From a bacterium (lineage in GTDB: Bacteria > JACRDZ01 > JAQUKH01): 50,731 bases of DNA. The translations under genes and the position numbers were made by a program. The stretch lies in NCBI GenBank assembly GCA_028719205.1, contig JAQUKH010000019.1, positions 1-50,731 of the forward strand. The letters are read 5' to 3'. Every line of letters begins with the position of its first letter. Position 1 is the first letter of the stretch. The notes below the pieces were generated by a model that searched no databases, was not told the DNA's origin, and saw only the letters and a program-made list of their open reading frames with translations. Positions 5,384-46,443 of this stretch are shown one piece after another.

Positions 5384-5415
5384 TTTTACCCAAATCATAT
5401 AAATTTTCACTGGAA

Positions 5416-5961
5416 TTAAAAAATTTCAGCTTTATCAATATAAGGAAAATTTTTATCTCTTTCACAAACAACTGTATCGTTTTTATTTATTTTCCAGTCT
5501 ATATTCAAAGTTTTATCATCAAACCTTATTCCTCTCTCAGCTTCTTTTTTATAGTAACCATCAACTTTATAGTTCACAATACATTCACTGCTGAGAACCG
5601 AGAATCCATGCGCGAATCCCTTTGGAATAAACAACTGTCTTTTATTCTCTTCGCTAAGTTCTATCGCTACCTGTTTTGAAAAAGTAGGTGAACCTCTCCT
5701 TATATCCACGGCAACATCAAGTATTTTACCCTTTATTACCCTTATCAGCTTGCTTTGCGCGAAAGGCGGGATTTGATAATGCAGGCCCCTTATTATTCCA
5801 TAAGGTGATTTTGATTCATTATCCTGAATAAAATTTATTTCCCCGATATTTTTTTTAAATAAATTATCTTTAAAGCTTTCAAAAAAATACCCTCTTTCAT
5901 CCAGCCAGACCTTCGGTTCGATAATAAACACATCAGGAATTTCTGTTTTAATAAAATTCAT
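5416..5961 (-). CDS. rfbC: dTDP-4-dehydrorhamnose 3,5-epimerase
   Basis: The 181-residue cupin-fold protein has the RmlC landmarks: DERGYFFE near residues 21-28, FIQDNES, the catalytic histidine in RGLHYQ (His61), Lys71, the [10 protein letters not shown] strand, IPKGFAHGF and the late tyrosine in NYKVDGYY. It epimerises C3 and C5 of dTDP-4-keto-6-deoxyglucose to give dTDP-4-keto-L-rhamnose. It overlaps the end of rfbA by 14 nt, so it is co-translated with it. Length is normal. A 3-epimerase-only relative (FdtC/TylK type) cannot be fully excluded from motifs, but the RfbA-C-B context favours the rhamnose route. Confidence 0.92.
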
Positions 5962-13383: not shown

Positions 13384-14260
13384 CTCTCCTCCATTTTTCA
13401 TATTTAGGTATTTCTTTTATTAAATCTGTAATCATTAAATCCCAGGACGGTGAAGAATATTTTGTAATTCCGCAAAAATTTGACGAATCAAGGCTTCTGT
13501 CACAAAAAAAATCTTCATCAGGTTTTATATCAACATTAAAACCTAATTTATCCCTGATCAGGCATAAAAGATCAAATTTATTAATAGGCTTACTCGATAC
13601 GTGGTACAATCCGCACATATCAGGATAATTCCTAATAATATTCAAAAGAATTTCAGCAAGAACACTGGTAGTAAAACCGCTAAAAATAGCATTCTTGTAT
13701 CCCTTGATACTTTTTCCTTTTTGACTTAAAAACCATTCAACAAGCCCGACAGTCCTTTCGATCTCACGGCCAATTATAGAAGTTCTGATAGTCAGGCAAT
13801 TTTCTCCTGTAACTTCACCCAATAATTTACTCCTCCCGTATAAATCGTAAGCATCCGGCACATCTTTTTCACTATAATTACCTTTTTTTCCTGAAAAAAC
13901 ACAATCTGTACTGATATGAATAACCTTTATCTTTTTCGTCATGGATAATGCTTCAAGCCAGTGCGGCAATAGCGCATTAATCGTTATAGCATGAATTGAA
14001 TTTTCTGACTCCTTCAGTTTTTTTACTATACCGACACAATTAATAACTACATCAGGTTTAACCCTATCAAAAACAAACTTAACAGAATCAAAAGTATCCA
14101 TATTAACGTTATCTATCATTTTTGACGGGTTAAAAAACGATAGTTTCTGGAATTTTTCTTTAGACGACCGCACCGTTATCCATGTATCAAGAACGGGACT
14201 AAAAACCTGATATACCCTATGCCCCAGCATACCGTTTCCACCCAAAATCAAAACTTTCAT
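13373..14260 (-). CDS. RmlD-like SDR reductase (probable UDP-4-keto-6-deoxy-L-HexNAc reductase)
   Basis: The 295-residue SDR has GGNGMLGH (7-14), the STDCVFSG motif (Ser117-Thr118-Asp119) and YGRSK (Tyr141/Lys145). It resembles dTDP-4-dehydrorhamnose reductase and the WbvR-type reductase. WbjC/CapF enzymes of the L-FucNAc route have about 370 residues with a C-terminal cupin; this protein ends before any cupin. Short RmlD-like reductases act in the UDP-L-RhaNAc / UDP-L-QuiNAc route of Vibrio cholerae O37 (WbvB-WbvR-WbvD). The flanking WbjB-like and WecB-like genes give the same three-enzyme set. It could instead, or also, supply the missing RfbD activity for dTDP-rhamnose. The SDR call is firm; the substrate is inferred. 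Confidence 0.75.
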   Translation of the reverse strand: MKVLILGGNGMLGHRVYQVFSPVLDTWITVRSSKEKFQKLSFFNPSKMIDNVNMDTFDSVKFVFDRVKPDVVINCVGIVKKLKESENSIHAITINALLPHWLEALSMTKKIKVIHISTDCVFSGKKGNYSEKDVPDAYDLYGRSKLLGEVTGENCLTIRTSIIGREIERTVGLVEWFLSQKGKSIKGYKNAIFSGFTTSVLAEILLNIIRNYPDMCGLYHVSSKPINKFDLLCLIRDKLGFNVDIKPDEDFFCDRSLDSSNFCGITKYSSPSWDLMITDLIKEIPKYEKWRRDVH

Positions 14261-27905: not shown

Positions 27906-29327
27906 TTAAAAAATAAATAATTTTCTAATTATCTTGGTAAAAGTAATACGAATACCATGAGTATGGAGAGAGGTAAACAATCTGTTAACATTATGCAAAA
28001 ATATTTTCAGAGGGTGCCTTTTAATGTAATTTCTTCTTATTTTTTTCTGTATAGTTTCTCTTACTGTTTCAAGATGATCATTTGGAAAATCCGTATAATT
28101 TACTAAAAAAGGAGCATCTGATGAGTATCCGCCTTCCAGGTTTTCCAGAAGATATTTTTCATCTTTAATTAAACCTTTCTGCAGTGTATACTCCCATAAC
28201 TTAGTCCCGGGTAAAGGAGTAGTATAATTTAAATTAGTGCCTGGATCATCTATTTCTTTAAAAAAATTTACTGTTTCGTTCAATGTCTGCATATCTTCCC
28301 CGGGATAACCAAACATCATCTGTATCATTGGATACAAACCCGCTTTTTTAGTCTCTATTATTATTTCCTTTGCCTGCCGCACAGACACTTTTTTATTCAT
28401 TGCATCCAGAATTCGCTGGCTTCCCGACTCTATTCCATATCCAACAGCAGTACACCCGGACTTCTTCATTATCCTGAGTATTTCAGGATCAAGTGTATTT
28501 ACCCTGCCCTGGCAATTCCATTTTATTTTTAGGTCTGCCAATCTTTCGCAAAGCTCTATTGTGCGTTTCTTATTGACTATAAGCAGTTCGTCATTAAAAA
28601 AAACACCTTCTATTTTATACTTATCCTTCAGCCATGAAATCTCTTTGATAAAATTATCAACAGAACGCAAACGAACACCACTGAACACTTTTGAGCAATA
28701 ATAACAACTATAAGGACATCCTCTGCCGCAAATTATATTTGCCGTTCTTAATTTCTCTTTAATACCTTCCACATTTAAATTATTAATATAAATTTCCATT
28801 GGGAATAATTCATAGGCTGGGAATGGTATTTCGTCCAAATTTTTAATATATTCTCTGGTAAGAGTTGTTAAAATTTCTCCTTGTTTTTCTTTAAAACAGA
28901 TACCTTTGACATTTTTTAAATTATCAAAATTCTCTATTAATTCTTTTATAGTTATTTCCCCTTCACCAATCACGCAGATATCAACATCCGTAGTTTCTAA
29001 AAGAACCCTGGAATTAAACGTGGCTAACGCGCCCCCGACAATTATTTTTTTATGGGGATCCATTTTTTTTATTTGCTGGGCAATCCATTTAACATAATTA
29101 TATTGAGTAGAAAAAGAACTGATACATACGATATCATTCACACTTTTTTCTAATCTTTTAATTACTTCTTCATTAGTATACTGATACGCGTAAATATCTA
29201 AAATTTCGACCGTATGCCCGGAATTAAGAAGCACTTTAGCTATATGTCCCATGCCTATTGGGAAAAAACTTGGCGATCTGGATTTACCTAAATAATAATG
29301 TGGAGGTTGAATTAATAAAATTTTCAT
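27906..29327 (-). CDS. B12-binding-domain radical SAM protein (copy 2)
   Basis: The 473-residue protein has the same architecture as the genes at 9804 and 45010. A cobalamin-binding-like domain (1-150; VCISSFSTQYN, IVGGALATFN, GEGEITIKEL) precedes a radical SAM core with GRGCPYSCYYC (Cys204, Cys208, Cys211), GYGIESGSQRILDAM and QMMFGYPGEDMQTL. The C-terminal tail IKRHPLKIFLHNVNRL is of the BchE-like kind. Substrate unknown. It begins 51 nt after the neuA/legF stop codon. A TGATATAAT string at 29342-29334 lies only about 10 nt before the ATG and no Shine-Dalgarno is seen, so its start signals are unusual. Confidence 0.88.
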   Translation of the reverse strand: MKILLIQPPHYYLGKSRSPSFFPIGMGHIAKVLLNSGHTVEILDIYAYQYTNEEVIKRLEKSVNDIVCISSFSTQYNYVKWIAQQIKKMDPHKKIIVGGALATFNSRVLLETTDVDICVIGEGEITIKELIENFDNLKNVKGICFKEKQGEILTTLTREYIKNLDEIPFPAYELFPMEIYINNLNVEGIKEKLRTANIICGRGCPYSCYYCSKVFSGVRLRSVDNFIKEISWLKDKYKIEGVFFNDELLIVNKKRTIELCERLADLKIKWNCQGRVNTLDPEILRIMKKSGCTAVGYGIESGSQRILDAMNKKVSVRQAKEIIIETKKAGLYPMIQMMFGYPGEDMQTLNETVNFFKEIDDPGTNLNYTTPLPGTKLWEYTLQKGLIKDEKYLLENLEGGYSSDAPFLVNYTDFPNDHLETVRETIQKKIRRNYIKRHPLKIFLHNVNRLFTSLHTHGIRITFTKIIRKLFIF

Positions 29328-29378: not shown

Positions 29379-30086
29379 TTATTTTTTTTGTGCTTTTTTT
29401 GACAATATAAGCTCCGCAAACGCAAAATCCAATTTATCATCGATATCAATACTAGATCTCTTTTCCATTTTATATGCATAGGTGCGCGGGCCCCAAAAAG
29501 ACCGTTTATCTTTGAAATATTTCCAATCTGTTAAATAAATCGCGCCATTTAAACAATAATACTCGGGTAATTTTTGACGGTTATTTTGTGCTTTTTTGGG
29601 CAAAAATCGGGACATACATCCGTCAGAAGGCAGGGTATTACACCACCACGGGTGCTTATCAGCAATTGCGACACTAATTACGCTCTGAGCGCCGCGTTCA
29701 TAAAATAATTCTACTGATTCTCTAATATGTTCCTTTTTTCTCAAAGGGCTTGTCGGCTGTAAAACCATTATGGCATCATAATAATCATTATGCCCTTCAA
29801 ACCACTTTTGGATGTTTAAGATTACATCTATTGTTTTGGCGTTATCGGTTGCCAGCTCCTTCGGCCTTATAAACGGTACCTCTGCTCCATACTTCCTGGA
29901 AATTACCGCAATTTTTTCATCATCCGTACTGACAATTATTTTATCAATATATTTGCTGGAACGAGCTTCTTCAATCGTCCAGGCTATAAGAGGTTTTCCT
30001 AATAAAGGTAATATATTTTTTTGGGGTAAGCCCTTTGACCCGCCCCTGGCCGGGATGATCCCAAGTATTTTTTTACCTTTATACAC
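29379..30086 (-). CDS. neuA: CMP-legionaminate / acylneuraminate cytidylyltransferase
   Basis: The 235-residue protein activates a nonulosonic acid with CTP to the CMP-sugar. It has the cytidylyltransferase start LGIIPARGGSKGLPQKN, VSTDDEKIA, LQPTSPLRKKEHI (the LQPTSPLR motif) and GAIYLTDW, and a terminal SSIDIDDKLDFAFAE. The start codon is GTG, with GGAG and AAGG upstream. It overlaps the ptmE-like gene by 8 nt and is the last gene of the operon, matching LegF/PtmB order in other bacteria. Because legB and legC lie in the same operon, legionaminate is a better substrate guess than N-acetylneuraminate. No C-terminal HAD phosphatase domain is fused. Confidence 0.92.
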   Translation of the reverse strand: MYKGKKILGIIPARGGSKGLPQKNILPLLGKPLIAWTIEEARSSKYIDKIIVSTDDEKIAVISRKYGAEVPFIRPKELATDNAKTIDVILNIQKWFEGHNDYYDAIMVLQPTSPLRKKEHIRESVELFYERGAQSVISVAIADKHPWWCNTLPSDGCMSRFLPKKAQNNRQKLPEYYCLNGAIYLTDWKYFKDKRSFWGPRTYAYKMEKRSSIDIDDKLDFAFAELILSKKAQKK

Positions 30087-31158
30087 CTTCTAAATCTCCC
30101 AACTTTTCGATACTCTTTTTATATTCCTTCCACTGCCCTATATCAAACCACCCCCCATAGATCGGGAATACGCTTATTTTTTCCTTTTCGATAATACAGT
30201 CTATTAATTTATTCATATCCATTGGTTTTCCCGGCGGAATATGTGAAATAACGTAAGGTTCTATTATATAGACACCGGTATTTATAATAATATCCTGCAC
30301 CGGTTTCTCGGATATCTTTTCCAGCTTACCATCAGATAATTCAAGAACACCAAATGGAATTTTTACTTCATTATGGCAGCCAATTATTGTAATAGCCGCT
30401 TTTTGCTCTTTATGCCATTTTAAAACTTCAGAAAAATCTGTTTCTAAAATAGAATCACAATTCGCGACAAAAAAGGTATCAGTAATTTTATCCTTCAACA
30501 AGGCTAATCCGCCCGCGGTCCCTAAAAGTTCTTTTTCCTCAATCCAGTCAATATTATAGGGAAATTTATTTTCAGCCAAAAAAAGTTTTATATATTCTTT
30601 TTTATAATTTAATGTATATATAAATTTGCTAAAACCATCCTGATAGAATTTTTCCATAATATGCTCAATTACAGGCTTATCATTAATGGGAATAAGCGGT
30701 TTAGGCAATATTTTAGTAAAAGGGTCTAACCGCGTACCCTTGCCTCCAGCCATTATTACAACCTGATTTTCAAAAACATTTTTACTTCTTGAATGTTTTT
30801 TTTCTTCAAGAAAATCAGTCCATAAAATAACATCAATTATTATTCCTTCATTATTTAACACCGGGATTTGTTCAAATTTTTTCTTAACCATTAATTTTCT
30901 AATATCTTCTTTCAGGCGGGCCTCGTCAGGCGTAACTTTGGTAAAATCCGTATGCATTATTTTTTCAACGCTATCGTTGAACTTAATATTGGAAATTATC
31001 CCCCTTCTGATATCTCCATCCGTAATAGTGCCCAAAAGTTTGCCTTTTTCATCCACAACGAATAATATTTTTTCAGCCGTTTCGTTTAACTTTTGCATAG
31101 CCAGTTTAAGATTCGTATTAGTTGAAATCAATAAAGATTTTAATTTATTTTTTTCCAT
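30079..31158 (-). CDS. ptmE: CBS-domain nucleotidyltransferase (PtmE-like, probable GlcN-1-P guanylyltransferase)
   Basis: The 359-residue protein has two CBS repeats (about 1-120; GTITDGDIRRGI, then FEQIPVLNNEGIIIDVI). An NTP-transferase domain starts at VVIMAGGKGTRLDPFTKILPKPLIPI. LLGTAGGLALLKD, ANCDSIL and GWFDIGQWKEY follow. In Campylobacter jejuni, PtmE of this architecture makes GDP-glucosamine, which enters the legionaminate pathway as GDP-GlcNAc. Its place between neuC and neuA supports the GDP-linked legionaminate route. It overlaps neuA by 8 nt and follows neuC by 4 nt. Related proteins act on heptose or mannose phosphates, so the sugar is inferred from context. Confidence 0.82.
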   Translation of the reverse strand: MEKNKLKSLLISTNTNLKLAMQKLNETAEKILFVVDEKGKLLGTITDGDIRRGIISNIKFNDSVEKIMHTDFTKVTPDEARLKEDIRKLMVKKKFEQIPVLNNEGIIIDVILWTDFLEEKKHSRSKNVFENQVVIMAGGKGTRLDPFTKILPKPLIPINDKPVIEHIMEKFYQDGFSKFIYTLNYKKEYIKLFLAENKFPYNIDWIEEKELLGTAGGLALLKDKITDTFFVANCDSILETDFSEVLKWHKEQKAAITIIGCHNEVKIPFGVLELSDGKLEKISEKPVQDIIINTGVYIIEPYVISHIPPGKPMDMNKLIDCIIEKEKISVFPIYGGWFDIGQWKEYKKSIEKLGDLEGV

Positions 31159-31162
31159 AGAG

Positions 31163-32335
31163 TTACTCTTTACCTTTTTTTAATTCATAAAACCATTTTT
31201 TCGCAATACCGGTTAATAATATTGTTTTAAGGACTTTTATGATCTTTTCACTCGCATTACCGTCACCATAAGAATTCACCAGTGTTTTTAATGAATCCCT
31301 GAATTTTTTTGATATAGCCTGATCAATAGCATTTTTTATTTTTTCTTTTTCAGCATTTGGAACATCAATAACATTATTTACCCTGATTCTTCCCTTCTGC
31401 CTGTCGCCTATATTTACAGCGGGGAGTTTAAAAGACGGGGCTTCAACGATACCACTGGAGGAATTCCCGACCATGATGTCCGCCCATTTTAATAACGAAA
31501 GGTATCTTAACTGCCCGAGAGAAACAAAAACTTTGCTTCTATCCGGATTATCCCTTACAAAATCATTTATTTTCTCGGCAATAACCCTTCCGCCCGTATC
31601 AGCATTTGGCATTGTAAAAATCCAATAAATGCCTTTAACCTCCTGAAGTGCTTTCATTAATTCCGACACCTGAAACTCAGCAGTGTTATTCTCAAGAGTC
31701 ACAGGATGATAAGTAACAACACCTATTTTTTTATCCAGTGGAAATCCAAGCACCTTTGATAACCGTTCCTTGCTTAACAGTTTAAGTTTGTTAATACTAT
31801 CCAGCCCCGGCGCACCTGTACAAAACACATTTTCAGGAGATTCACCCATTTGTATTATTCTGTCCGCGTAAAGTTTGGCGGCTGGAAAATGAATATGGCT
31901 CATTTTAGTTATCGCGTGACGGAAGAGTTCATCCATCGCCCCCTCCGTGGATTCACCGCCATGAATATGAGCGACAGGTATCCTGAAAGGAACTGCCGCG
32001 GCAACCGCGGACAGTATTTCAAACCTATCGCCCAAAACAACTATCACGTCCGGTTTTAACCGTTCATACGCTTTAGCGAATCCGATCATTCCAAGCCCCA
32101 TTGAAGCGGCAATTGCAGTTTCAGTATCGGATGAAAGCAGCATTTCCACTTTTTCAGCGATCGGGAATTTATCTTTCTCAATTTCCTTAACTGTCATTCC
32201 AAATTCAGGAGAAAGATGCATGCCCGTAACAATTAATTGCAGTTTAAGTGAAGGATCTTCATGTGTACCTTTTATTATCCAGTAAAGCAATCCATATTCT
32301 GCTCTTGTTCCGGTTATTACAGCAATTTTACGCAT
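31163..32335 (-). CDS. neuC: Hydrolysing NDP-sugar 2-epimerase (NeuC/LegG)
   Basis: The 390-residue GT-B-fold protein begins with IAVITGTRAEYGLLYWI, the NeuC/LegG signature, and has VVLGDRFE, HIHGGESTEGAMDE, TYHPVTLE and VGNSSSGIVEAPSF. Hydrolysing 2-epimerases release the nucleotide and give ManNAc or, for LegG, 2,4-diacetamido-2,4,6-trideoxymannose, which condenses with phosphoenolpyruvate in the next step. In this operon the substrate is probably GDP-2,4-diacetamido-bacillosamine. It overlaps neuB by 8 nt. It differs from the non-hydrolysing enzyme at 11216, which has GTRPE instead of GTRAEYG. Confidence 0.9.
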   Translation of the reverse strand: MRKIAVITGTRAEYGLLYWIIKGTHEDPSLKLQLIVTGMHLSPEFGMTVKEIEKDKFPIAEKVEMLLSSDTETAIAASMGLGMIGFAKAYERLKPDVIVVLGDRFEILSAVAAAVPFRIPVAHIHGGESTEGAMDELFRHAITKMSHIHFPAAKLYADRIIQMGESPENVFCTGAPGLDSINKLKLLSKERLSKVLGFPLDKKIGVVTYHPVTLENNTAEFQVSELMKALQEVKGIYWIFTMPNADTGGRVIAEKINDFVRDNPDRSKVFVSLGQLRYLSLLKWADIMVGNSSSGIVEAPSFKLPAVNIGDRQKGRIRVNNVIDVPNAEKEKIKNAIDQAISKKFRDSLKTLVNSYGDGNASEKIIKVLKTILLTGIAKKWFYELKKGKE

Positions 32336-33353
32336 AAAAATCTTCCCATGTAATTATTGAATCGATTGTAATGTTCCGTTTTATTTCCATTCCGATAATT
32401 ATTTCTTTGAATTCAGGCTGGATCCCATTCCCAGGCCTTTTAATTAAAATGTCATCTGAAGCGATTATGTTTCCCGCTTTTATATCTCTTGCAGAAACAA
32501 TGCTTTTCCTCGCGATATTCCTGGTATTTTTCTCGTTTTTTACAGGCCTTTTTATACCATCACCTATAGCCTTTTCAACATTTCTTATCGCGTTAACCAT
32601 TGCCTTTAATTCATTCGGTTCTAACGACGCCTTGTGGTCAGGCCCTTTCATATTCCGGCTGAGCGTAAAATGTTTTTCGATCACAGCCGCTCCCAATGCC
32701 GCCGCAGCGACCGAGATTTCAACTCCCATCGTGTGGTCGGAATATCCAACCGGCAGGGTAAAAGCTTTTCGCATAGTTTTCATTACAGATAAATTTGAAT
32801 CTTCAACTAAAGCAGGATAATTCGACACACAGTGTAAAAGCGTCAACTGAGGCCTTTTTTTAAATCGCCCCCAGATCTCATTGATCCAGTTTATGGCCTT
32901 TTCTACTTCTCCCAGGTAAGACATACCTGTGGAAAGTATTATCGGCTTTTTCTTTGACGCAACATGCTGAATTAATGGTTTATTGGAAATCTCGCCTGAT
33001 GGTATTTTAAAAATTTTCACACCCAGGGTATTAAGCATATCCGCGCTTTCTTCGTCAAAAGGCGTTGACATGAACATAATATTTCTTTTCACGGCATACG
33101 CGTATAATTCTTTAAAATTCGCGTATGATAATTCCAGTTTTTTCAGCATCTCGAACTGTGACCCATTTTCTCCTGTATTTTCGATCTGGTATTTCGCTTT
33201 ATTCGCGGATCTATTCACCAGTTTTTCAGTTTTAAAAGTCTGGAATTTAACGGCATCCGCTCCCGCGCCTGCAGCCGCGTCAATTAATTTTCTGGCAATT
33301 GACATATCGCCGTTATGATTAACTCCCGCTTCCGCGATTATAAAAATTTTCAT
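32328..33353 (-). CDS. neuB: Legionaminate / N-acetylneuraminate synthase (NeuB/LegI)
   Basis: The 341-residue protein has an N-terminal TIM barrel (AEAGVNHNGD at 7-16, AVKFQTFK, MSTPFDEESAD, KIPSGEI, ILSTGMS, LLHCVSNYP, GYSDHTMG, EKHFTLSRNMKGPDHKASL). A C-terminal SAF / antifreeze-like domain starts near 280 (RKSIVSARDIKAGNII). It condenses a ManNAc-type sugar with phosphoenolpyruvate to a nine-carbon nonulosonate. The ATG overlaps the neuD stop (ATGA-type) and the 3' end overlaps neuC. All metal- and PEP-binding motifs look intact and the length is normal. In the legBC context the product is probably legionaminic acid rather than Neu5Ac. Confidence 0.93.
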   Translation of the reverse strand: MKIFIIAEAGVNHNGDMSIARKLIDAAAGAGADAVKFQTFKTEKLVNRSANKAKYQIENTGENGSQFEMLKKLELSYANFKELYAYAVKRNIMFMSTPFDEESADMLNTLGVKIFKIPSGEISNKPLIQHVASKKKPIILSTGMSYLGEVEKAINWINEIWGRFKKRPQLTLLHCVSNYPALVEDSNLSVMKTMRKAFTLPVGYSDHTMGVEISVAAAALGAAVIEKHFTLSRNMKGPDHKASLEPNELKAMVNAIRNVEKAIGDGIKRPVKNEKNTRNIARKSIVSARDIKAGNIIASDDILIKRPGNGIQPEFKEIIIGMEIKRNITIDSIITWEDFYA

Positions 33354-33982
33354 TTTGCCGGCACACCTTTCACTGTTTTACCGTCAGCCGCATCTTTTAT
33401 TACCACGGAACCGGCGGCAACAATAACATCTTTGCCAATGCGAATCCCTTGTATTATTGTAGAACCCGCTCCTATAAAAGAACCGTCGCCTACCTTAACA
33501 CCGCCGCTTATAACAACTCCCGGACATATATGCGCATTTTTACCTATATCACAATCATGATCGATTATGGCGCCCGTATTAATTATTGTGTTTTCCCCGA
33601 TAGCCGCACCTGTCTGTACAATTACACCGGCCATTATTTGCGCACCATCTGAGATCCGGGACTCTTTAGAAACAACCGCTTTCGGATGGATCAGGCATTC
33701 AATATTAAAGCCGATCTCTTTTGCTTTATCGTATAATCTCTTTCTCTTAGTATTATCTTTTACGCTGCCGACAGCTATACAGATATTTTTGATATTCTTT
33801 TTGTATAGTTCCGGAAGTAACTCATCACGCCCAAGTACCGGAATGCCGGAGATTATCGTGCCCTCGGCAATATTCGTATCTACTATCCCCGCGATATTAT
33901 ATTGCCCGGAAGCTTTAATTAACTCAATTAAAACCTTCGCGTGTCCCCCTCCGCCCAAAATAATGATTTTTTTCATTTTCAT
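33350..33982 (-). CDS. neuD: NeuD/PglD-type sugar N-acetyltransferase (LegH candidate)
   Basis: The 210-residue protein has an N-terminal Rossmann-like PglD_N domain (IIILGGGGHAKVLIELI) and a left-handed beta-helix of hexapeptide repeats (GAQIMAGVIVQTGAAIGENTII pattern). The catalytic histidine lies in TGAIIDHDCDIG, the signature of bacillosamine/legionaminate N-acetyltransferases. It would acetylate the C4 amino group made by LegC. It lies 2 nt after legC and overlaps neuB by 4 nt. In sialic-acid operons NeuD is an O-acetyltransferase; with legB/legC present, the LegH role is more likely. Length is normal. Confidence 0.85.
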   Translation of the reverse strand: MKMKKIIILGGGGHAKVLIELIKASGQYNIAGIVDTNIAEGTIISGIPVLGRDELLPELYKKNIKNICIAVGSVKDNTKRKRLYDKAKEIGFNIECLIHPKAVVSKESRISDGAQIMAGVIVQTGAAIGENTIINTGAIIDHDCDIGKNAHICPGVVISGGVKVGDGSFIGAGSTIIQGIRIGKDVIVAAGSVVIKDAADGKTVKGVPAK

Positions 33983-33984
33983 AT

Positions 33985-35154
33985 CTATAAACTCTCAAAA
34001 TATTTCTTAATATTTTCAACAATATATTTTATTTCTTTCTCTTTCAAACTTACACTGCAGGGAAGATTTATACACGTTTCATAAGCATAAACCGCGTTCT
34101 CTATCTTATAAACCTGGGAATCTTTATACATCGGCAGGGTATGGATCAGCCTCCAGATCGGCCTTACCTGAATATCTTTTGATATTAAATATTTCATCAA
34201 ACTATTTTTATACTTTTTATCGACATTTATCGTATAAAACCAAAAATTACTTTTTACCTCAGGCCTTTCCCCTGAAAATCTTATACCATTAATATCTGAT
34301 AATAAATTTCTGTATATTTCCGCGTTCTTCCTTTTTACACAAATAAATTCATCAAGCCGCTCCATCTGCGCCACGCCCATAGCCGCCTGTATATTTGTAA
34401 GGCGGTAATTAAATCCAACTTCATCATGATCAAACTCAAAAGGATCCTTTTTAGCCTGAGTGGTAAGATGTTTTACCCTTTTTGCCAGGGCATAATCATC
34501 CGTAACCACCATGCCGCCGCCGCCCGTGGTTATAATTTTATTGCCGTTAAATGAAAAACATCCTGTTTTGCCAAAAGAACCGGACCGTTTACCTTTATAC
34601 TCGGACCCAAGGCTCTCTGTCGCGTCTTCAATAATATCAATATGATATTTTTTGCAAACCTCTACTAAGCCGTCAAGTTCAGCCGGATGCCCGAATATAT
34701 GAACAGGAATAATAGCTTTTATTCTGCGTTTAGTATTTTTATTATATGTATAACCATCCTTATTTTGGGCACATTCATTTTTAAAAAAATCTATAAGTTT
34801 TTGAATATCTAAACAAAGTGTTTCCGCGTCACAATCCATAAAAACAGGATACGCCCCGCAATACCTTACTGTGTTAACAGGAGCAATAAATGTAAGTGTT
34901 GGAACAATAACCTCGTCACCTGAACAAACACCGCAGGCAATAAGGCTCACGTGAAGCGCTGATGTGCCATTAACTACCGCCACCGCGTATTTTGTCCCCG
35001 TGTAGCCGGCAAGCATTTTTTCAAAACGGTCAACATAGCTTCCTACGGAAGAAACCCAGCCGGTATCAAGGCAATCTTTAATATATTTCCATTCATTACC
35101 GGAAATTTCCGGTTCTGATAAAGGGATCATATTTTTTTTAACGGGTTCAGACAT
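33985..35154 (-). CDS. legC: Nucleotide-sugar C4 aminotransferase (LegC-like, DegT family)
   Basis: The 389-residue PLP enzyme opens with IPLSEPEISGNEWKYIKDCLDTGWVSSVG and NGTSALHVSLIACGV, matching LegC rather than the ArnB or RfbH types. IIEDATESLG holds Asp177 and FSFNGNKIITTGGGG the PLP lysine (Lys206). It would convert the 4-keto-6-deoxy sugar made by LegB to the 4-amino sugar, using glutamate. A short Asn/Lys/Tyr-rich stretch (about 128-145) is a small loop. It overlaps legB by 8 nt and is followed by neuD. Full length and apparently intact. Confidence 0.87.
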   Translation of the reverse strand: MSEPVKKNMIPLSEPEISGNEWKYIKDCLDTGWVSSVGSYVDRFEKMLAGYTGTKYAVAVVNGTSALHVSLIACGVCSGDEVIVPTLTFIAPVNTVRYCGAYPVFMDCDAETLCLDIQKLIDFFKNECAQNKDGYTYNKNTKRRIKAIIPVHIFGHPAELDGLVEVCKKYHIDIIEDATESLGSEYKGKRSGSFGKTGCFSFNGNKIITTGGGGMVVTDDYALAKRVKHLTTQAKKDPFEFDHDEVGFNYRLTNIQAAMGVAQMERLDEFICVKRKNAEIYRNLLSDINGIRFSGERPEVKSNFWFYTINVDKKYKNSLMKYLISKDIQVRPIWRLIHTLPMYKDSQVYKIENAVYAYETCINLPCSVSLKEKEIKYIVENIKKYFESL

Positions 35155-36160
35155 TATAAATATCCTCTTTATATCTCTTACAATTCTCTTTTTCCCTGAA
35201 CCATTCTATGGTTTCTTCCAAGCCTCTTTCTAATGAATACTCCGATTCCCAATTTGTCAGGCTTTTCATTTTTTTATTGCTTCCTAATAATCTCTCGACT
35301 TCACTTCTTTCAGGCCTCAATCTATTATCATCGGATATTATTTTTGCCTTTGGATTTATTATATTAATTAACTTTTTCGCCAGATCCCCAACCGATATCT
35401 CATTCTGAGTCGCAATGTTTATTTCCTCACCTATCGTTTTTGCGGAATTAGCTATTTCCACAAAACCTCTTACCGTATCTTTTACATAAACCAGATCCCT
35501 GGTCGGATGCAGCGCCCCTAATTTTATTTCTTTTTTACCGGCTAAAAGCTGTGTTATTATCGTAGGAATTACTGCTCTTGCTGATTGTCTGGGGCCATAA
35601 GTATTAAACGGCCTGACAATTACAACAGGAAGGTTAAAACTTCTATAAAACGACTCTGCTATATGATCAGCTCCAATTTTTGTCGCGGAATACGGTGACT
35701 GGCCCTGCCTGGGATGTTTTTCATCTATTGGAACATATTTTGCCGTACCATAAACCTCAGACGTGGAAGTCACCAGAATTTTTTCTACTTTGGTTTCTCT
35801 TGCCGCTTGAAGAACGTTCAAAGTTCCTTTAATATTTGTATCAACATAACTGTCGGGAGAATGATAGCTGAAAGGAATTCCGATAAGCGCAGCCAAATGA
35901 AAAACAACATCTATTTCTTTAACCGCTTCCCTTACACCATTTGGATCCCTTATATCTCCGGCGAAAATTTGAATATTTTTAAGCTTATCTTTAGATAAAG
36001 TATCAAGCCATCCCCAGGAATTAAAAGAATTATAAAAAATAAACGCTTTAACGTGGCAGCCTATACCTGATAAATATTCAACAAGATGGCTCCCGATAAA
36101 GCCATCCGCGCCGGTAACTAAAACTTTTTTATTTTTTAAAAATGTATAATCTTTATCCAT
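35147..36160 (-). CDS. legB: NDP-GlcNAc 4,6-dehydratase (LegB-like)
   Basis: The 337-residue extended SDR has VLVTGADGFIGSHLVEYL (NAD motif) and TSTSEVYGTAKYVPI with the dehydratase Thr-Ser-Glu site. QSPYSATKIGADH supplies the YxxxK pair, and NTYGPRQSARAVIPTII and HPTRDLVYVKDTVRGF are the LegB landmarks. LegB of Campylobacter dehydrates GDP-GlcNAc to the 4-keto-6-deoxy sugar. It is the first gene of the seven-gene legionaminate operon and starts 7 nt after the radical SAM/SPASM stop codon, so both modules may share a transcript. GDP-mannose 4,6-dehydratase is a weaker alternative. Confidence 0.87.
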   Translation of the reverse strand: MDKDYTFLKNKKVLVTGADGFIGSHLVEYLSGIGCHVKAFIFYNSFNSWGWLDTLSKDKLKNIQIFAGDIRDPNGVREAVKEIDVVFHLAALIGIPFSYHSPDSYVDTNIKGTLNVLQAARETKVEKILVTSTSEVYGTAKYVPIDEKHPRQGQSPYSATKIGADHIAESFYRSFNLPVVIVRPFNTYGPRQSARAVIPTIITQLLAGKKEIKLGALHPTRDLVYVKDTVRGFVEIANSAKTIGEEINIATQNEISVGDLAKKLINIINPKAKIISDDNRLRPERSEVERLLGSNKKMKSLTNWESEYSLERGLEETIEWFREKENCKRYKEDIYNV

Positions 36161-36167
36161 TTTTCGC

Positions 36168-37250
36168 CTAAAGAACCTGATAATAATTACATATATGGCA
36201 CATTGTATCAGTTAAATTGGAATTTTTCCTATATGCTTCCCACTCCTTTACGGATGGGACAGAAAATCCTTTTTCCCCGGCACTAATATTTCTATTTTTA
36301 TTGGTAAAACTCTTTCTCGCGGAAACATATGAAACATCATTCCAAATTTTTTTAAATGATTTTTCGCTAACATTCCCAAAAGAAAATGCATATGAATCCT
36401 GTAAATAACAACAAGGAATTATCGTACCATTCCATTGTATTGTTGACATACACCATAACCAATAACACGGTTGTTTTGGTTTTCTTTTTAAAAAAGCATA
36501 CTTTTTCTTATTTTCTTCATTTAAAGCATTAGTATCATAACCATCAGGGATAAAAGTTATCTTATCAACTCCCATTTTTTTTGCTAATATTTCCGCATCA
36601 TTAATTTGATATTCATTCCATTTAGTAATTACATATTGCCATTCGATAAACGGAGTAGAACTTTTTAACTCTTTACGTTTATCTATCAAAAGTTGCAAAT
36701 TACTAATTACTCTATTTAAATTTCCACCTATTCTATTTTTTTCATAAATTTCCTGAGTAAGACCATCAATCGCAACAATTAGATGATTTAACCCTGATTT
36801 AACCATTTTATCCGCGCTTTCATTGTCAAGCAAATGGAAATTACTGGATAATGATATAGAAACATTTTTTTTGCGCGCGTATGAAATCATTTCGTAAATA
36901 TCTTTGTTTAATAAGGGTTCTCCCCACAGATACAATTTAATAACAAAAAGATATGGGCCCATTTCATCAATAATTTTTCTAAAAAGTTCCACAGGCATAA
37001 AACCTTTAGGAAAAGGATTTTCAAAATCATTAGAATAACATTCTTTACATCTAAGATTACAACGATTTGTCGGCTCAATTTTGACAATAAAAGGATAACC
37101 ATGTATCTTTGGCCTTTTTAATACCATTTGCGATAAAACTATAACCGCATTAGATAATTTTTTAAAAGATAAAGTTTCCCTCTTAAATGAAAACTTCACG
37201 ATTCTATTTATTTTACTAAATTTGCTAAGATTTACTATTGATATTTTCAT
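36168..37250 (-). CDS. Radical SAM / SPASM-domain protein
   Basis: The 360-residue protein has the cluster motif TNRCNLRCKEC (Cys64, Cys68, Cys71) and GEPLLNKDIYEMI, LSSNFHLLD and VAIDGLTQEIYEKNR of the radical SAM core. The C-terminal SPASM-like cysteines are CYWLWC, IPCCYLQD and MCHICNYY, which could bind auxiliary iron-sulfur clusters. SPASM proteins oxidise or cross-link peptides, alcohols and sugars. No peptide precursor gene is seen nearby, so a carbohydrate or lipid substrate is more likely. It has AGGA 9 nt before the ATG and lies between a DegT aminotransferase and legB. Substrate unknown. Confidence 0.87.
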   Translation of the reverse strand: MKISIVNLSKFSKINRIVKFSFKRETLSFKKLSNAVIVLSQMVLKRPKIHGYPFIVKIEPTNRCNLRCKECYSNDFENPFPKGFMPVELFRKIIDEMGPYLFVIKLYLWGEPLLNKDIYEMISYARKKNVSISLSSNFHLLDNESADKMVKSGLNHLIVAIDGLTQEIYEKNRIGGNLNRVISNLQLLIDKRKELKSSTPFIEWQYVITKWNEYQINDAEILAKKMGVDKITFIPDGYDTNALNEENKKKYAFLKRKPKQPCYWLWCMSTIQWNGTIIPCCYLQDSYAFSFGNVSEKSFKKIWNDVSYVSARKSFTNKNRNISAGEKGFSVPSVKEWEAYRKNSNLTDTMCHICNYYQVL

Positions 37251-37306
37251 ATGCCAAATTCCTGAATGATCCTAAATTTATTTCGTGAAATTTTGTCAGG
37301 CCAAAA

Positions 37307-38413
37307 TTATTTTTTAAAAAAATTACGTATAGTGTCTATTACATATTCCGCTTCATCATTTGTTAATTCAGGATATATCGGCAGTGAAAGAACTTCCGCT
37401 GAAATACGTTCAGTTACAGGTAATTTAAAATGGCTAAGTCCCAGGGCCTTCTGTTTATGTACCGGTGTAGGCCAGGAGATAAGCACTTCAACTCCCGAGG
37501 AACGTAAATATGCTACTAACTCATTCCGTTTTTTTGATCTGATAACATAATTCTGATATACATCAAAATACTCAGAAGCCGCGCGAGGATGAATAATAAT
37601 ATCTCCGATCCCTGCAAGACCTTTATTATATAATTCAGCTATCTCTCTGCGCCTTTCCACCCATTTATCAAAATAATTAAACTTCATGTCAAGTAACGCG
37701 GCATGGAGATTGTCAAGCCTTGTACACCACCCAAAGCACTCAATTACTTCTACGGAATCAACTCTTCCATTATCTCTGAAGGCCCTTAATTTTCTTGCTA
37801 AACCGTCGTCATTTGTGCAAACCATTCCGCCATCTCCCGCTGTACCTAACATCTTTGCAGGATAAAAACTAAATATGCCTGTATCTCCAAAAGACGAGCA
37901 ACGTTTACCTTTATATTTGGCTCCCAGCGCCTGAGCGGCATCTTCTATAACTTTTAGATTATACTTTCCGGCTAACTCCATGATTTTGTCCATATTACAA
38001 GCATGGCCGTTAAGATGTACAGGAATAATACCTTTTGTCTTTGGTGTAATAACTTCTTCTATCTTATTAACATCCATATTAAAATCATCAGTTACATCTA
38101 CAAGTACCGGTGTCGCGCCGCATTGAACAATGGCTCCAACTGTCGCGACAAAAGTATGAGCGACGGTTATTACTTCATCTCCCGGCTTAAAACCCAGAGC
38201 ATGAGCAGAAAGATATAACGCGTCTGTTCCTGTATTTACTCCTATCGCGTATTTGGTACCGACATACTCAGCAATTCTCTTTTCAAAATTATCCAAATGC
38301 CGTCTTAATATAAAATCTCCGCCTGACATTATTTCCTCAAACACATTATCAAACTCTTTTTTTAACATTTTATATTGTTTTGGATAATTAACGAACTTTA
38401 CAGTTTTTGACAT
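37307..38413 (-). CDS. DegT/DnrJ/EryC1/StrS sugar aminotransferase
   Basis: The 368-residue PLP enzyme has VNTGTDALYLSAHALGFKPGDEV, HLNGHACNMD, VIEDAAQALGAKY (Asp158) and FSFYPAKMLGTAGDGG (Lys187). These are typical of nucleotide-sugar 3- or 4-aminotransferases such as WlaRG/FdtB/DesV relatives. It follows the E1 beta gene by 11 nt, so it is co-transcribed with the E1 pair. A role in aminating a keto sugar that the E1 pair also uses, or has extended, is a reasonable guess. Full length; catalytic residues intact. Substrate unknown. Confidence 0.88.
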   Translation of the reverse strand: MSKTVKFVNYPKQYKMLKKEFDNVFEEIMSGGDFILRRHLDNFEKRIAEYVGTKYAIGVNTGTDALYLSAHALGFKPGDEVITVAHTFVATVGAIVQCGATPVLVDVTDDFNMDVNKIEEVITPKTKGIIPVHLNGHACNMDKIMELAGKYNLKVIEDAAQALGAKYKGKRCSSFGDTGIFSFYPAKMLGTAGDGGMVCTNDDGLARKLRAFRDNGRVDSVEVIECFGWCTRLDNLHAALLDMKFNYFDKWVERRREIAELYNKGLAGIGDIIIHPRAASEYFDVYQNYVIRSKKRNELVAYLRSSGVEVLISWPTPVHKQKALGLSHFKLPVTERISAEVLSLPIYPELTNDEAEYVIDTIRNFFKK

Positions 38414-38424
38414 TAAAAACCTCC

Positions 38425-39414
38425 CTATTCAAATATTTTTTTTACTTTATTAATAATTTTATTGCAGTCAATATAGTATTCTTTTTCTAATGTACAACTT
38501 GATGGAGCAGGTATATCCGGCAGGGCTAATCTATAAATTGGTGATTTTAAATCTTTAAATAAGGCACTTTCTGCTATTGTTGCAGATATTTCCGCGGCCA
38601 ACCCGCACGTTTTCCAGCCGCCGTCAATAATAAGCAATCTTCCTGTTTTTTTTACAGATTTTTCTAACATATCCTTATCAATAGGTTTAACTGAACGAAG
38701 GTCAATTACTTCCGCCTTTATCCCTTCTTTTTCTAATATTTCAGCCGCTTTTAAAGTTTCCAAAACCAAATAGGATACAGACACTAATGTTATATCTTTA
38801 CCCGATTTTCTTATTATGCCTTTACCAATAGGTACTGAATATAATTCTTCAGGTACTTCCCCTTCAATATTATATAACCACCGATCGTCTATATAAACCA
38901 CAGGATTATCATCTTTTATGGCTGAAACCATTAATCCTTTAGCATCATAAGAGTTAGACGGCATTACCACCTTAAGTCCGGGAATATGCGCAAATAAAGC
39001 GTGCATTGACTGTGAATGTTGCGCGCCTTGTTCTCCTCCCCGATTTATTACCCCCCAAATTACTACAGGAGCGGTGCCTCTACCCCCATTCATATAATGC
39101 CAATTTGCTGCTTCATTAATTATCGGATCCATAGCATACATCATAAAATCCATTCTTGGATGAACAACAATCGGCCTCATTCCCGCGATAGCAGCTCCAA
39201 CTGCCGCTCCGGTTATTGCATTTTCTGAAACAGGCGTATCAATAATTCTTTCAGGCCCAAATTTCTTCAAAAGTCCTAAAGCGGTCTTTCCTACATACCA
39301 TGGACTCTTAACCCCCTGGCCTATAAGAAACACAGACTTATCACACGCCATCATCTGATGGAAAGCCTCATTTATAGCTAAACTATACTGCAATTTTCTA
39401 ACTTTTGAAGACAT
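38425..39414 (-). CDS. Thiamine-diphosphate E1 component, beta subunit
   Basis: The 329-residue protein has the transketolase-like pyrimidine domain (DTPVSENAITGAAVGAAIAG, with the conserved catalytic Glu64) and the C-terminal domain (DITLVSVSYLVLETLKAAEIL...VIDLRSVKPIDKD). This is the PdhB/AcoB layout. It overlaps the alpha gene by 17 nt. Classical E1 proteins decarboxylate 2-oxo acids and pass the acyl unit to lipoyl-E2, but no E2, E3 or lipoate ligase gene is in the window. In avilamycin biosynthesis an E1-like pair (AviB1/AviB2) is involved in adding a two-carbon branch to a sugar. A similar role is possible here. Confidence 0.88.
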   Translation of the reverse strand: MSSKVRKLQYSLAINEAFHQMMACDKSVFLIGQGVKSPWYVGKTALGLLKKFGPERIIDTPVSENAITGAAVGAAIAGMRPIVVHPRMDFMMYAMDPIINEAANWHYMNGGRGTAPVVIWGVINRGGEQGAQHSQSMHALFAHIPGLKVVMPSNSYDAKGLMVSAIKDDNPVVYIDDRWLYNIEGEVPEELYSVPIGKGIIRKSGKDITLVSVSYLVLETLKAAEILEKEGIKAEVIDLRSVKPIDKDMLEKSVKKTGRLLIIDGGWKTCGLAAEISATIAESALFKDLKSPIYRLALPDIPAPSSCTLEKEYYIDCNKIINKVKKIFE

Positions 39415-40387
39415 ATTTATTTAACTCACTTGCTTTTGGAAAAGAACTTTCCCGGGTAAAAATATAAGCGTCATTAACTTCGGTTATTACTTCATTTTCT
39501 ATCATCTCAAAATCTATTTTTTTAAATATATTGTTTTCTAAAAGGTATCTTTCAAATTTTTTTATTGGATCCTTTTTTTTCCACTTTTTTATTTCATTCA
39601 ATGGACGAATATCTGTATGCACTCCCTGGACATTATCATCAGCGCCTACATGGCCGCGTAATCGATAAGTCATAAATTCTAAAAATACAGGCCCCTGCCC
39701 ATTTTTACAAAAATTAACCGCTTTTTTTGCCGCAGCGTATACCTTTAATACATCATTACCATCTATCCTGAAACCGGGAATTCCAAAATGTTTGCCAATT
39801 TCAAAAATATTATTTCTTGCCCGGCATTCTTTTATTGAAAGGTGTGTGGAATATAAATTATTCTCACACGCAAAAATAACAGGCAATTTTTTTAAGGACG
39901 CAAAATTTAAGGACTCGTACAATACACCTTCTCCGGTCGCTCCGTCACCAAAAAAGCTTATTGTAACATTATTTGTTTTTCTGATTTTTGATGCCAGCGC
40001 GCATCCCACAGCTAAAGAAATTGTACCGGCAACGATCGGGGCAGACCCTAACATCCCGACTGATGGATCACATATATGCATTGATCCTCCCCTGCCTCTT
40101 GAACACCCGCTTTCTTTTCCAAAAATTTCCGCGATTAAATCTTTTATCTTACCGCCTTGCGCTAAAAAATGCCCATGAGAACGATGATTTCCAAAAATGT
40201 TATCTTTTGAAGTAATGGCGGCACAAACTCCCGCGGCCACAGCTTCCTGGCCTGAGCAAAGATGAACCGGGCACTTTATTTCCGAATTTAAAATATACGG
40301 AACCAAGCTTTCTTCACAGATCCGGATCCTTAACATTGTTTTATAAATCTTTTTCAATTCGATTTTAGATATTTTTTTTTCCATCAT
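39398..40387 (-). CDS. Thiamine-diphosphate E1 component, alpha subunit
   Basis: The 329-residue PdhA/AcoA-like protein has CSGQEAVAAGVCAAI, the phosphorylation-loop-like GNHRSHGHFLAQGG (His68, His71) and RGRGGSMHICD. The ThDP motif is GDGATGEGVLYESLNFASLKKLPVIFACENN (Gly147-Asp148-Gly149 to Asn176-Asn177). With the beta subunit it should form a heterotetramer with two ThDP sites. The pair sits between a GT4 gene (21 nt upstream) and a DegT aminotransferase, not with dehydrogenase-complex genes. Both subunits look intact, so they are probably functional and used in sugar chemistry. A stand-alone housekeeping E1 is the dull alternative. Confidence 0.88.
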   Translation of the reverse strand: MMEKKISKIELKKIYKTMLRIRICEESLVPYILNSEIKCPVHLCSGQEAVAAGVCAAITSKDNIFGNHRSHGHFLAQGGKIKDLIAEIFGKESGCSRGRGGSMHICDPSVGMLGSAPIVAGTISLAVGCALASKIRKTNNVTISFFGDGATGEGVLYESLNFASLKKLPVIFACENNLYSTHLSIKECRARNNIFEIGKHFGIPGFRIDGNDVLKVYAAAKKAVNFCKNGQGPVFLEFMTYRLRGHVGADDNVQGVHTDIRPLNEIKKWKKKDPIKKFERYLLENNIFKKIDFEMIENEVITEVNDAYIFTRESSFPKASELNKYVFKS

Positions 40388-40408: not shown

Positions 40409-41560
40409 TCAAGCTTTTTTAACAAATTCTGAATAAAGTTTTCCGTATTCCTTTATCTTACTGGACATCGATAAATTTTCCCTGATAAATTTTTTAGCCT
40501 TTCTTGTCTTGGACAATGCCTCTTCCCTATGTTCCAAAATAAAATTCATACGATCTCTAAGTTCAGTATTGTTTCCCCATTCTACTAAATAACCCGCGTC
40601 CATCTTTTTGACATCCTCTCCTGCACCGGAATTATTGCTGACAATTATCGGTGTATCACATAAAACAGCCTCAATCGGCGCCCATGCCCCTTGTTCATAC
40701 CTGGATGTCTGCACTACAATATCCGCGTCTACTAAAGCAGAAAGTTTATCCCTTCCGCTGCAAAATCCGGCAAATAATACTTTATCTTCAATATTTAATT
40801 TTTTTATTAATTCATCTAACTTCGGTTTAAACCCGTCATCGGAACCCACAATCACAAGGATTACATCATTTCTTATCTTAATAAGTTCATTAAAACCTTC
40901 TACCAAAAAATCAATTCCTTTTATCCAATTTATCCTGCCAATAAACATAATAACTTTTTTATCCTGGATCTTAAATTTATCTCTAAAAAGCCCTCTGGAC
41001 GGTAATTGGACAAAATCTTCAACCGGGAAAGGAGGCTGAATTAATATTATATCATTATCTTTTACACCTAATTCTTTGTATTCATCAATACCCACATTAG
41101 TTTCAGCTATACATTTTTTCGAGTCCCTCAACATTTTATATCCAAATATATTATCAAATAATCGTTTTAAAGCCTTTCTTCTTGTATGTCTTGGCGCAGA
41201 ACCATGAGCGTCAATAACATAAGGGATATTATACTTTTTAGCATAATGATAAACCGCTATATTTTGAAAAGTACGAAAAGCATGAAAATGTATAATATCA
41301 AAATTCTTGAAATTTATCTTTTTTTCATCAAATAATCCAGGCATAATATAAAGCCTTAATGAATTCAGATAACTGCGGGAAGAAATAATAGATACTCCTT
41401 CCAAAGATTTCGCGTATTCATTATCCAATTTATAATCTCCGGTAAGTATCGTAACATCATGCCCTTCCTGTTTTTGAGCCCTGGCAAGCTTATATATCAG
41501 ATCACAGGTACCACCCGCGTGTTTTAAAGAAAAAAAGATAAACACATGTAAAATTTTCAT
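40409..41560 (-). CDS. Family 4 glycosyltransferase
   Basis: The 383-residue GT-B protein has KHAGGTCDLIYKLARAQKQEGHDVTILTGDY at the N-terminus (acceptor domain), VDAHGSAPRHTRR, and a GT4 donor domain with MFIGRINWIKGIDFLVEG, VGSDDGFKPKLDELI, FAGFCSGRDKL and the E-x7-E region RYEQGAWAPIEAVLCDTPII. It lies between the large GT-C-like gene and the E1 pair, and may add the sugar those enzymes make. Full length for GT4; donor and acceptor unknown. Confidence 0.87.
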   Translation of the reverse strand: MKILHVFIFFSLKHAGGTCDLIYKLARAQKQEGHDVTILTGDYKLDNEYAKSLEGVSIISSRSYLNSLRLYIMPGLFDEKKINFKNFDIIHFHAFRTFQNIAVYHYAKKYNIPYVIDAHGSAPRHTRRKALKRLFDNIFGYKMLRDSKKCIAETNVGIDEYKELGVKDNDIILIQPPFPVEDFVQLPSRGLFRDKFKIQDKKVIMFIGRINWIKGIDFLVEGFNELIKIRNDVILVIVGSDDGFKPKLDELIKKLNIEDKVLFAGFCSGRDKLSALVDADIVVQTSRYEQGAWAPIEAVLCDTPIIVSNNSGAGEDVKKMDAGYLVEWGNNTELRDRMNFILEHREEALSKTRKAKKFIRENLSMSSKIKEYGKLYSEFVKKA

Positions 41561-45009: not shown

Positions 45010-46443
45010 TTATTGGTTTGAAAAAAGCATTTGTTGAATAAGATATAAAAACCCTCTGAAAATATTCATAAAATCACTCACATTATTAATTGTTTTAAAA
45101 ATAATAATAACCTGTTTAAATCGAAAATAGAATTTTCTATTCCACAGGTTTGAAATATATTTCAATTCATTTCCTGAATAACGTTCATTTGTGCTTAACT
45201 CGCTATTATTGCAAGTCATAACAAACTTGCCCCATTCTTCCCCGCTTTTAGGATGTAATTCCCGTGGTAAATATTTTTCATATACTTCTGTACCGGGATA
45301 AGGAGTTAACGGGAAAAAAATTGCTATTGTTGGACCTATATTTTTTGCCGCTTCCAGCGTCATTTCCATGGTTTTTTCATCATCAAACGGGAATCCCAGA
45401 ATGAATGTACATTGGGTACGTAATCCCGCATCACTACATGCTTTAACCGCTTCCTTAGCTCTTTCGATAGAAATTCCTTTTTTTATTTTTTTTAAAATTT
45501 CAGGGGAACCGGATTCAATACCAAACGCGATCATTTTACAGCCTGCCTTTTTCATAAGCTTGGCGAGATCATAATCTATCGCGTCAACTCTAGACAAACA
45601 ATACCAGGAAGGTCTATTTTTCATTTTAATGAGCCCGTTACAGATACCTTCAATTCTATCCCTTTTTAAAGTCATCGTATCGTCTTCAAAAACGATATGA
45701 TCAATTTTATATTTATTTGTTATCTCTGTAATTTCTGCCAATACATTTTCAACCGATCTAAAACGGTATTCCGACCCCATTGTTAAATGGCTGGAACAAA
45801 ACAAACATTTAAAAGGACACCCACGGCTTGTTATCATAGTCGCGCTTTTCTTGCCAAAATCTATATAACTGTGCAACCGGAATCTGGAAATGTCTACTAA
45901 ATCTCTTGCAGGAAAAGGTAATTTATCCAGGTCTTTAATCAGAGTTTGTTTTTCATTCTCCTGAATATTTCCCTTATCATCGCGCCAGAGCAAGCCTTTA
46001 ACAGATTTAAGATCAGGACTGCTTTTTATTAATTCATTAATCAAATCAAGCATTGTTAATTCACCCTCGCCAACCACAGCAAAATCTGTATCCGGCGATT
46101 GTTCCAGCACTTCTTTCTTTACAGCAGAGATATGGTGTCCGCCCATAATAGTTCTGGCATTACTATTTTTTTTAATAATACCGCAAATATTAATTGCTTT
46201 CGGATAAGTAGATGTCATTACACTTATTCCTACAAGATCAGGATTATAATTCCTAAGGCTCTCCATTAATTCCTGATCGAACCTCTTATTGTCAGCAGGC
46301 TGAAATATTTTAACCGGATATCCTTTTTGTCGTAAAAATGCCGCTAAATAACCTATTCCTAACGGAAAATAATTACCAACTACAATACTTCCTTTTTTAT
46401 AAGCATACGGGGCCTCTATTAACAAAATTCTAAATTCCGGCAT
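45010..46443 (-). CDS. B12-binding-domain radical SAM protein (copy 3)
   Basis: The 477-residue protein is the third of its kind in the window. The N-terminal cobalamin-binding-like domain has VGISVMTSTYPKA, TIMGGHHISAV and GEGELTMLDL. The radical SAM core has SRGCPFKCLFC (Cys209, Cys213, Cys216), AFGIESGSPEILKKI and TFILGFPFDDEKTM. The tail (WNRKFYFRFKQVIIIF) is aromatic and basic. GGAAGG and AGGA lie upstream of the ATG. The neighbouring methyltransferase starts 7 nt after its stop, so the two may act on the same substrate. I could not find the DxHxxG motif, which many B12 radical SAM proteins also lack, so true B12 binding is inferred from fold only. Confidence 0.87.
   Translation of the reverse strand: MPEFRILLIEAPYAYKKGSIVVGNYFPLGIGYLAAFLRQKGYPVKIFQPADNKRFDQELMESLRNYNPDLVGISVMTSTYPKAINICGIIKKNSNARTIMGGHHISAVKKEVLEQSPDTDFAVVGEGELTMLDLINELIKSSPDLKSVKGLLWRDDKGNIQENEKQTLIKDLDKLPFPARDLVDISRFRLHSYIDFGKKSATMITSRGCPFKCLFCSSHLTMGSEYRFRSVENVLAEITEITNKYKIDHIVFEDDTMTLKRDRIEGICNGLIKMKNRPSWYCLSRVDAIDYDLAKLMKKAGCKMIAFGIESGSPEILKKIKKGISIERAKEAVKACSDAGLRTQCTFILGFPFDDEKTMEMTLEAAKNIGPTIAIFFPLTPYPGTEVYEKYLPRELHPKSGEEWGKFVMTCNNSELSTNERYSGNELKYISNLWNRKFYFRFKQVIIIFKTINNVSDFMNIFRGFLYLIQQMLFSNQ

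Follow-up and report, generated by a model that had tools for sequence, protein, structure and literature searches.

The DNA analysed here, called the window, is a stretch of 50,731 nucleotides (nt) (contig JAQUKH010000019.1 of the bacterial assembly GCA_028719205.1) that forms a single long minus-strand glycan locus with glycosyltransferases and Wzx- and Wzy-like proteins. Its positions 36168-40387 hold four intact genes, all on the minus strand, headed by a pair that resembles the two chains of the E1 component of pyruvate dehydrogenase (PDH). The E1-alpha-like subunit of the proposed carboligase (39398-40387; PF00676, E1_dh, 240 bits) has its thiamine diphosphate (ThDP) motif as GDG at residues 147-149 and NN at 176-177, and overlaps by 17 nt the E1-beta-like subunit (38425-39414; PF02779, Transket_pyr, 110 bits; PF02780, Transketolase_C, 127 bits), in which Glu64 corresponds in the alignment to the catalytic Glu59 of PDH E1-beta and GQGVKSPWYVG is a clade signature. 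After a gap of 11 nt follows a DegT/DnrJ aminotransferase (37307-38413; PF01041, 361 bits), whose pyridoxal phosphate lysine stands in the context FYPAKMLG, and then a radical SAM/SPASM gene (36168-37250; Radical_SAM 64 bits, SPASM 46 bits). This order, the intactness of the E1 genes, the overlap, the gap, the GDG...NN motif and Glu64 had been described in an earlier note on this DNA and were all found again, and genes for E2, E3 or lipoate, which it had reported as absent nearby, were likewise not found among the window proteins.

Recurrence of the pair in glycan loci

An alignment query of bacterial and archaeal genomes was evaluated for the best 80 of 458 related stretches, and the same kind of query of viral-contig collections returned 24 loci; a single-protein E1-alpha scan of the viral contigs gave no match, although the alignment query did find loci there. 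A gap in identity set a close set of 31 loci (alpha mostly 52-67%, beta about 59-74% identical) apart from the rest, and the gene content of this set was re-annotated by tblastn. The close-set clade spans Omnitrophota, Desulfuromonadaceae/Desulfobacteraceae, Bacteroidota, Planctomycetota, Patescibacteria and phage-classed contigs. Its E1-beta was found in about 8 of 334 genomes of an Omnitrophota phylum sample and in 13 of 395 genomes of a sample around a Desulfuromonadaceae genome; among Bacteroidota, Patescibacteria and Planctomycetota, the seed genome of each sample was the only one with an E1-beta match. A close E1-alpha match was absent from three other genomes of the source genome's phylum, one of them of the same genus.

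The recurring order is a small sugar-phosphate transferase, E1-alpha, E1-beta and then DegT, with an aldo-keto reductase (AKR) instead of DegT in some loci, and so includes genes that the earlier note had not listed. The small sugar transferase (PF02397) lies just upstream of E1-alpha in 27 of the 31 close-set loci and in 0 of 83 other glycan-locus pairs, and a PglF-type dehydratase lies near the pair in 15 of 31 against 2 of 83. DegT is present in 23 close-set loci and adjoins the pair in 22, the window enzyme being 76-81% identical to those adjoining E1 pairs in L019 and L188-L190; an AKR (PF00248) stands between the sugar transferase and E1-alpha in six of the 31, and a methyltransferase occurs in 13. 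It might be argued that the E1 pair and DegT are chance neighbours that serve separate sugars of a large locus, as the window holds several sugar pathways (legionaminic type, UDP-L-FucNAc-like and dTDP-rhamnose-like), but their adjacency over several phyla and the fact that DegT is replaced by AKR only, and never joined by it, make this quite improbable.

The four-gene unit proposed in the earlier note was recovered in part: E1-alpha, E1-beta and DegT recur across phyla, whereas the radical SAM/SPASM gene was seen beside the pair in no close-set locus among the 31 other than the window. This gene lies 56 nt after DegT, yet 7 nt before the LegB-type gene described below. Its relatives occur in 18 of 285 Omnitrophota genomes at 32-41% identity, and 0 of 22 of these relatives lay within about 1.5 kb of an E1 gene. 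The gene was therefore excluded from the cassette, its membership not being supported.

Two tree sisters of the close set, L187 (7077-11947) and L201, have the order LegB, E1-alpha, E1-beta, DegT and nucleotidyltransferase, with a LegB homologue 69-72% identical to that of the window directly before E1-alpha. No NeuB was found near these two cassettes, and their LegB-type dehydratase apparently serves the E1 branching pair. The occurrence of two types of 4,6-dehydratase beside the same pair suggests that the acceptor is a nucleotide-linked 4-keto-6-deoxy-N-acetylhexosamine.

Some further genes and relatives were observed. Two IMG/VR contigs classed as viral (L099 and L100) have the sugar transferase, E1-alpha, E1-beta and DegT. 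A class I/II aminotransferase that resembles methionine/aspartate aminotransferases follows DegT in L021, L022, L182, L183, L186, L195-L197 and L199 and is absent from the AKR loci and the window; its role might be to provide a second amine or the donor 2-oxo acid. Another and larger family of E1 pairs from glycan loci (L015, L017, L031-L098 and L202-L214; 42-56% identity) was split off, since the sugar-phosphate transferase was found in 0 of 83 cases. Its members, from Nitrospirae, Deltaproteobacteria, Alphaproteobacteria and archaea, have no adjacent E2 and lie near SIS isomerase, PfkB or GHMP kinase, epimerase, Fcl-like and radical SAM genes, and their product probably differs from that of the close set.

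Separation from dehydrogenase E1 subunits

Family models label both subunits as PDH E1, with 315 bits for alpha and 332 bits for beta on PDH E1 models and 33 and 95 bits, respectively, on transketolase models. The window alpha falls under the equivalog cut-offs of TIGR03182 and TIGR03181 (315 vs 394 and 217 vs 411 bits). The labels, and the presence of one E3 (lipoamide dehydrogenase) on another contig of the source genome, would fit a standard E1 of pyruvate or acetoin dehydrogenase that came to lie in a glycan locus by chance, and the fold, the ThDP motif and the catalytic Glu/His are indeed common to those enzymes and the window pair. We find this scarcely credible, because the source genome (2.59 Mb), 92.7% complete, gave no E2 match (PF00198) anywhere, because the pair belongs to a clade distinct from E2-linked E1s, and because its linkage to glycan genes holds across phyla. 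The only full-length E1_dh protein in the source genome is the window E1-alpha. No E2 adjoins the pair in any of the 31 close-set loci, and of 10 further genomes that carry a close relative of this pair, 4 have no E2 either. Any single absence is weak, as these genomes are drafts; the pattern across genomes is unlike that of a dehydrogenase subunit.

By FastTree, 16 E2-linked E1 pairs formed their own clade apart from 129 glycan-locus pairs with support of 1.0, and the close set together with L187 and L201 was also supported at 1.0. The E2-linked references comprised acetoin, PDH and similar operons, paralogues beside E2 genes in the cassette-bearing genomes, and the top plasmid matches by identity, most of which came from sugar-alcohol or other loci that have an E2. 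Two unannotated Streptomyces plasmid pairs considered as AviB homologues were dropped because an E2 gene follows them. Among the signs of a housekeeping enzyme named in the earlier note (grouping with PDH or acetoin dehydrogenase, E2/E3 elsewhere in the genome, neither DegT nor glycan genes linked to the pair), only the unlinked E3 was seen.

The close-set beta chain is also marked by Q33, G34, W39, Y40, P97, W120, N124 and D176, where E2-linked beta chains have E, D, G, G, Q, R, G and E, respectively; Glu64 and His133 of beta and the alpha histidines are retained. Q33 aligns with position 28 of the Bacillus stearothermophilus E1-beta chain, where Glu28 is part of the acidic tunnel joining the two active sites, and loss of its equivalent may be a mark of a non-complex enzyme. 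The same data bear on a split-transketolase-like reaction, in which a C2 ketol (hydroxyacetyl) unit would be moved from a sugar phosphate to a 4-keto sugar. Split transketolases have been proposed for the branched sugars of amipurimycin and miharamycin (PMC12247030), and the fold is common to E1 and transketolase; nevertheless, the far higher PDH E1 scores of both chains and the retained E1-type histidines render this reaction rather implausible here.

Exchange of aminotransferase and reductase

AKR and DegT occur together in 0 of the 31 close-set loci. On an IQ-TREE phylogeny of concatenated alpha and beta (35 rows), the AKR/DegT label needs six changes, at least five of which are forced by well-supported branches, and close sisters with opposite labels include L195/L198, L021/L194 and L023/L183. 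All five independent pairs on supported branches are opposite (sign test p = 0.0625, the floor for five pairs); the hypergeometric value of 1.7e-6 (4.9e-5 without two truncated loci) ignores relatedness and is indicative only. The exchange of AKR for DegT at one pathway position would be expected if both enzymes act on the same ketone.

This exchange is also relevant to another route, in which the pair would decarboxylate a 2-oxo acid but DegT would aminate the ring 4-ketone first, and E1 would then pass its acyl unit to something else, for example the new amine or a small acceptor, giving an N-acylated and not a C-branched sugar. A 4,6-dehydratase and DegT alone are the usual route to 4-amino sugars, and the window DegT is nearest to ring-ketone aminotransferases, its nearest solved chains including QdtB, DesV-type enzymes and WbpE. 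However, the AKR loci, which have no DegT and hence no amine, still keep the E1 pair, the small sugar-phosphate transferase and PglF, and the alphaKADH2 precedent is C-C bond formation (PMC12247030), so that we regard N-acylation as unlikely.

Proposed pathway

We lean modestly towards the view that the pair is a stand-alone alphaKADH2-type carboligase adding a pyruvate-derived acetyl branch, the ketone of which is aminated by DegT. Several traits of alphaKADH2 enzymes were found: split E1-alpha and E1-beta chains with the ThDP motif and the catalytic Glu, absence of a partner E2, location in a deoxysugar/glycan pathway, and a partner beside the pair that could reduce or transaminate the branch ketone (AKR or DegT). 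These two partner enzymes match the two known fates of such a ketone, which points to the acetyl-branch pathway. From what was observed, namely the genes present, their linkage across loci, the separate clade, the repeated exchange of AKR and DegT and the lack of E2, we infer the substrate, donor, nucleotide, branch position, DegT regiochemistry and final sugar as follows. A 4,6-dehydratase of LegB or PglF type would provide a nucleotide-activated 4-keto-6-deoxy-N-acetylhexosamine; E1-alpha/beta would decarboxylate pyruvate and add the two-carbon acyl anion to the ring ketone, which would yield a sugar bearing a 4-C-acetyl branch and a tertiary alcohol. In the window, DegT would then transaminate the branch ketone to a 4-C-(1-aminoethyl) group, while in sister loci AKR would reduce the same ketone to a 4-C-(1-hydroxyethyl) group, and the finished branched sugar would be transferred into the surface glycan. 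A branch at C-3, which kibdelomycin has, is less probable, since the cassette showed no 3,4-ketoisomerase. The sugar branching and later amination put forward in the earlier note gained from the cross-phylum order, the E2 absence, the separate clade and the AKR/DegT exchange, and its radical SAM gene fell away as a member.

Several points weigh against this pathway. The window DegT resembles 3-aminotransferases (QdtB, DesV, WbpE), which act on ring ketones, and the nearest relatives of the AKR are of the general stress protein 69/IolS type (Pau7, the reductase of the paulomycin pathway, has been reported as AKR5). Two AKR loci, L020 and L184, are cut off downstream, so that a DegT there could go unseen. 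The window itself lacks the small sugar-phosphate transferase, and its PglF gene is about 20 kb from the E1 pair. The likeness to AviB1/AviB2, Pau11/Pau12 and KbDH is one of architecture and pathway description, and the literature searched held no biochemical data for the close-set enzymes or glycans.

More broadly, and tentatively, we propose that 2-acetamido-2,6-dideoxy-4-C-(1-aminoethyl)- and 4-C-(1-hydroxyethyl)-hexoses may be widespread, undescribed surface-glycan sugars, made by PDH-E1-like carboligases on UDP- or GDP-linked 4-keto-N-acetylhexosamines; in the course of evolution, the aminotransferase and the reductase would have taken each other's place many times, so that the branch became an amine in some lineages and an alcohol in others. 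According to a 2025 review, branching of cell-surface sugars is primarily YerE-like and E1-type branching belongs mainly to antibiotic pathways; here the proposed reaction would take place in bacterial surface-glycan loci. If true, a glycan clade of E1-type carboligases that spans phyla and has two finishing enzymes able to replace each other would provide branched amino sugars from a new source and a large set of ketone-accepting biocatalysts for C-C bond formation, and would give a rule for re-reading genes annotated as PDH E1 in genomes without the pyruvate dehydrogenase complex.

Other genes of the window

Two window genes are candidate sources of the 4-keto sugar, their link to the pair being inferred: the LegB-type 4,6-dehydratase (35147-36160, minus; TIGR04180, 511 bits, above cut-off), which serves the legionaminic-type pathway too, and the PglF-type membrane 4,6-dehydratase (15514-17382, minus; PF02719, 396 bits). 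A GT4 glycosyltransferase (40409-41560, minus; PF00534/PF13439) lies 21 nt upstream of E1-alpha and could be the sugar transferase that replaces the small one of other loci. The source genome has two PF02397 proteins, both large (about 470 amino acids) and on contigs other than that of the window (C3 and C9), and no small PglC-like transferase was found in it, unlike in other cassette carriers.

The window also encodes a legionaminic-type set (LegB, LegC, NeuD, NeuB, NeuC, PtmE-like and CMP-transferase; 29379-36160, minus), a UDP-L-FucNAc-like set (11216-14260), rhamnose-type (dTDP-rhamnose-like) genes (4370-6841), ManC and UDP-glucose dehydrogenase. A polysialyltransferase-like protein (PF07388; 25391-26416) near the nonulosonate genes suggests that the legionaminic-type sugar forms a polymer or chain, and three B12-binding radical SAM proteins (9804-11219, 27906-29327 and 45010-46443) could carry out C-methylation or other sugar modification.

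Comparison with known systems

Among ThDP carboligases of lipopolysaccharide sugars, YerE and ErwE (yersiniose and erwiniose) set a C4 branch on a 4-keto-deoxy sugar. They are, however, single proteins of the decarboxylase superfamily (YerE being a TPP-dependent flavoprotein) with CDP-4-keto-3,6-dideoxyglucose as substrate, and such a single-chain enzyme does not describe the window, which has two E1-type chains. Its DegT has the fold, lysine motif and similar sequence in common with QdtB, FdtB, DesV and WbpE. Those enzymes act on ring 3-ketones, whereas the proposed substrate ketone of the window DegT is on the branch. Unlike the E1 subunits of PDH and acetoin dehydrogenase, the pair has no E2, falls in a separate clade and has clade-specific beta substitutions.

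A survey by Krug in 2024 reportedly covers about 120 alphaKADH2 clusters and may already contain some of these loci. Like the alphaKADH2 pairs KbDH-alpha/beta, AviB1/AviB2 and Pau11/Pau12 and the aldgamycin and kosinostatin enzymes, the window pair consists of split PDH-E1-like genes in a sugar pathway. Researchers have found that alphaKADH2 enzymes form C2 branches from pyruvate, and KbDH-alpha/beta couples pyruvate with cyclic ketones in vitro (PMC12247030). What then happens to the ketone of the branch differs: it undergoes reduction in paulomycin F, trioxacarcin and avilamycin E and transamination in kibdelomycin (PMC12247030), the paulomycin pair Pau11/Pau12 being accompanied by the reductase Pau7 (PMC4425429, PMC4753412). 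A candidate finishing partner for such a ketone stands beside the pair in the close set too. The known alphaKADH2 pairs belong to actinobacterial secondary metabolites, whereas the close set lies in surface-glycan loci of other phyla and, unlike the antibiotic pairs, stands with a sugar-phosphate transferase and UDP-GlcNAc-type 4,6-dehydratases, for which reason a 2-acetamido sugar is the expected acceptor.

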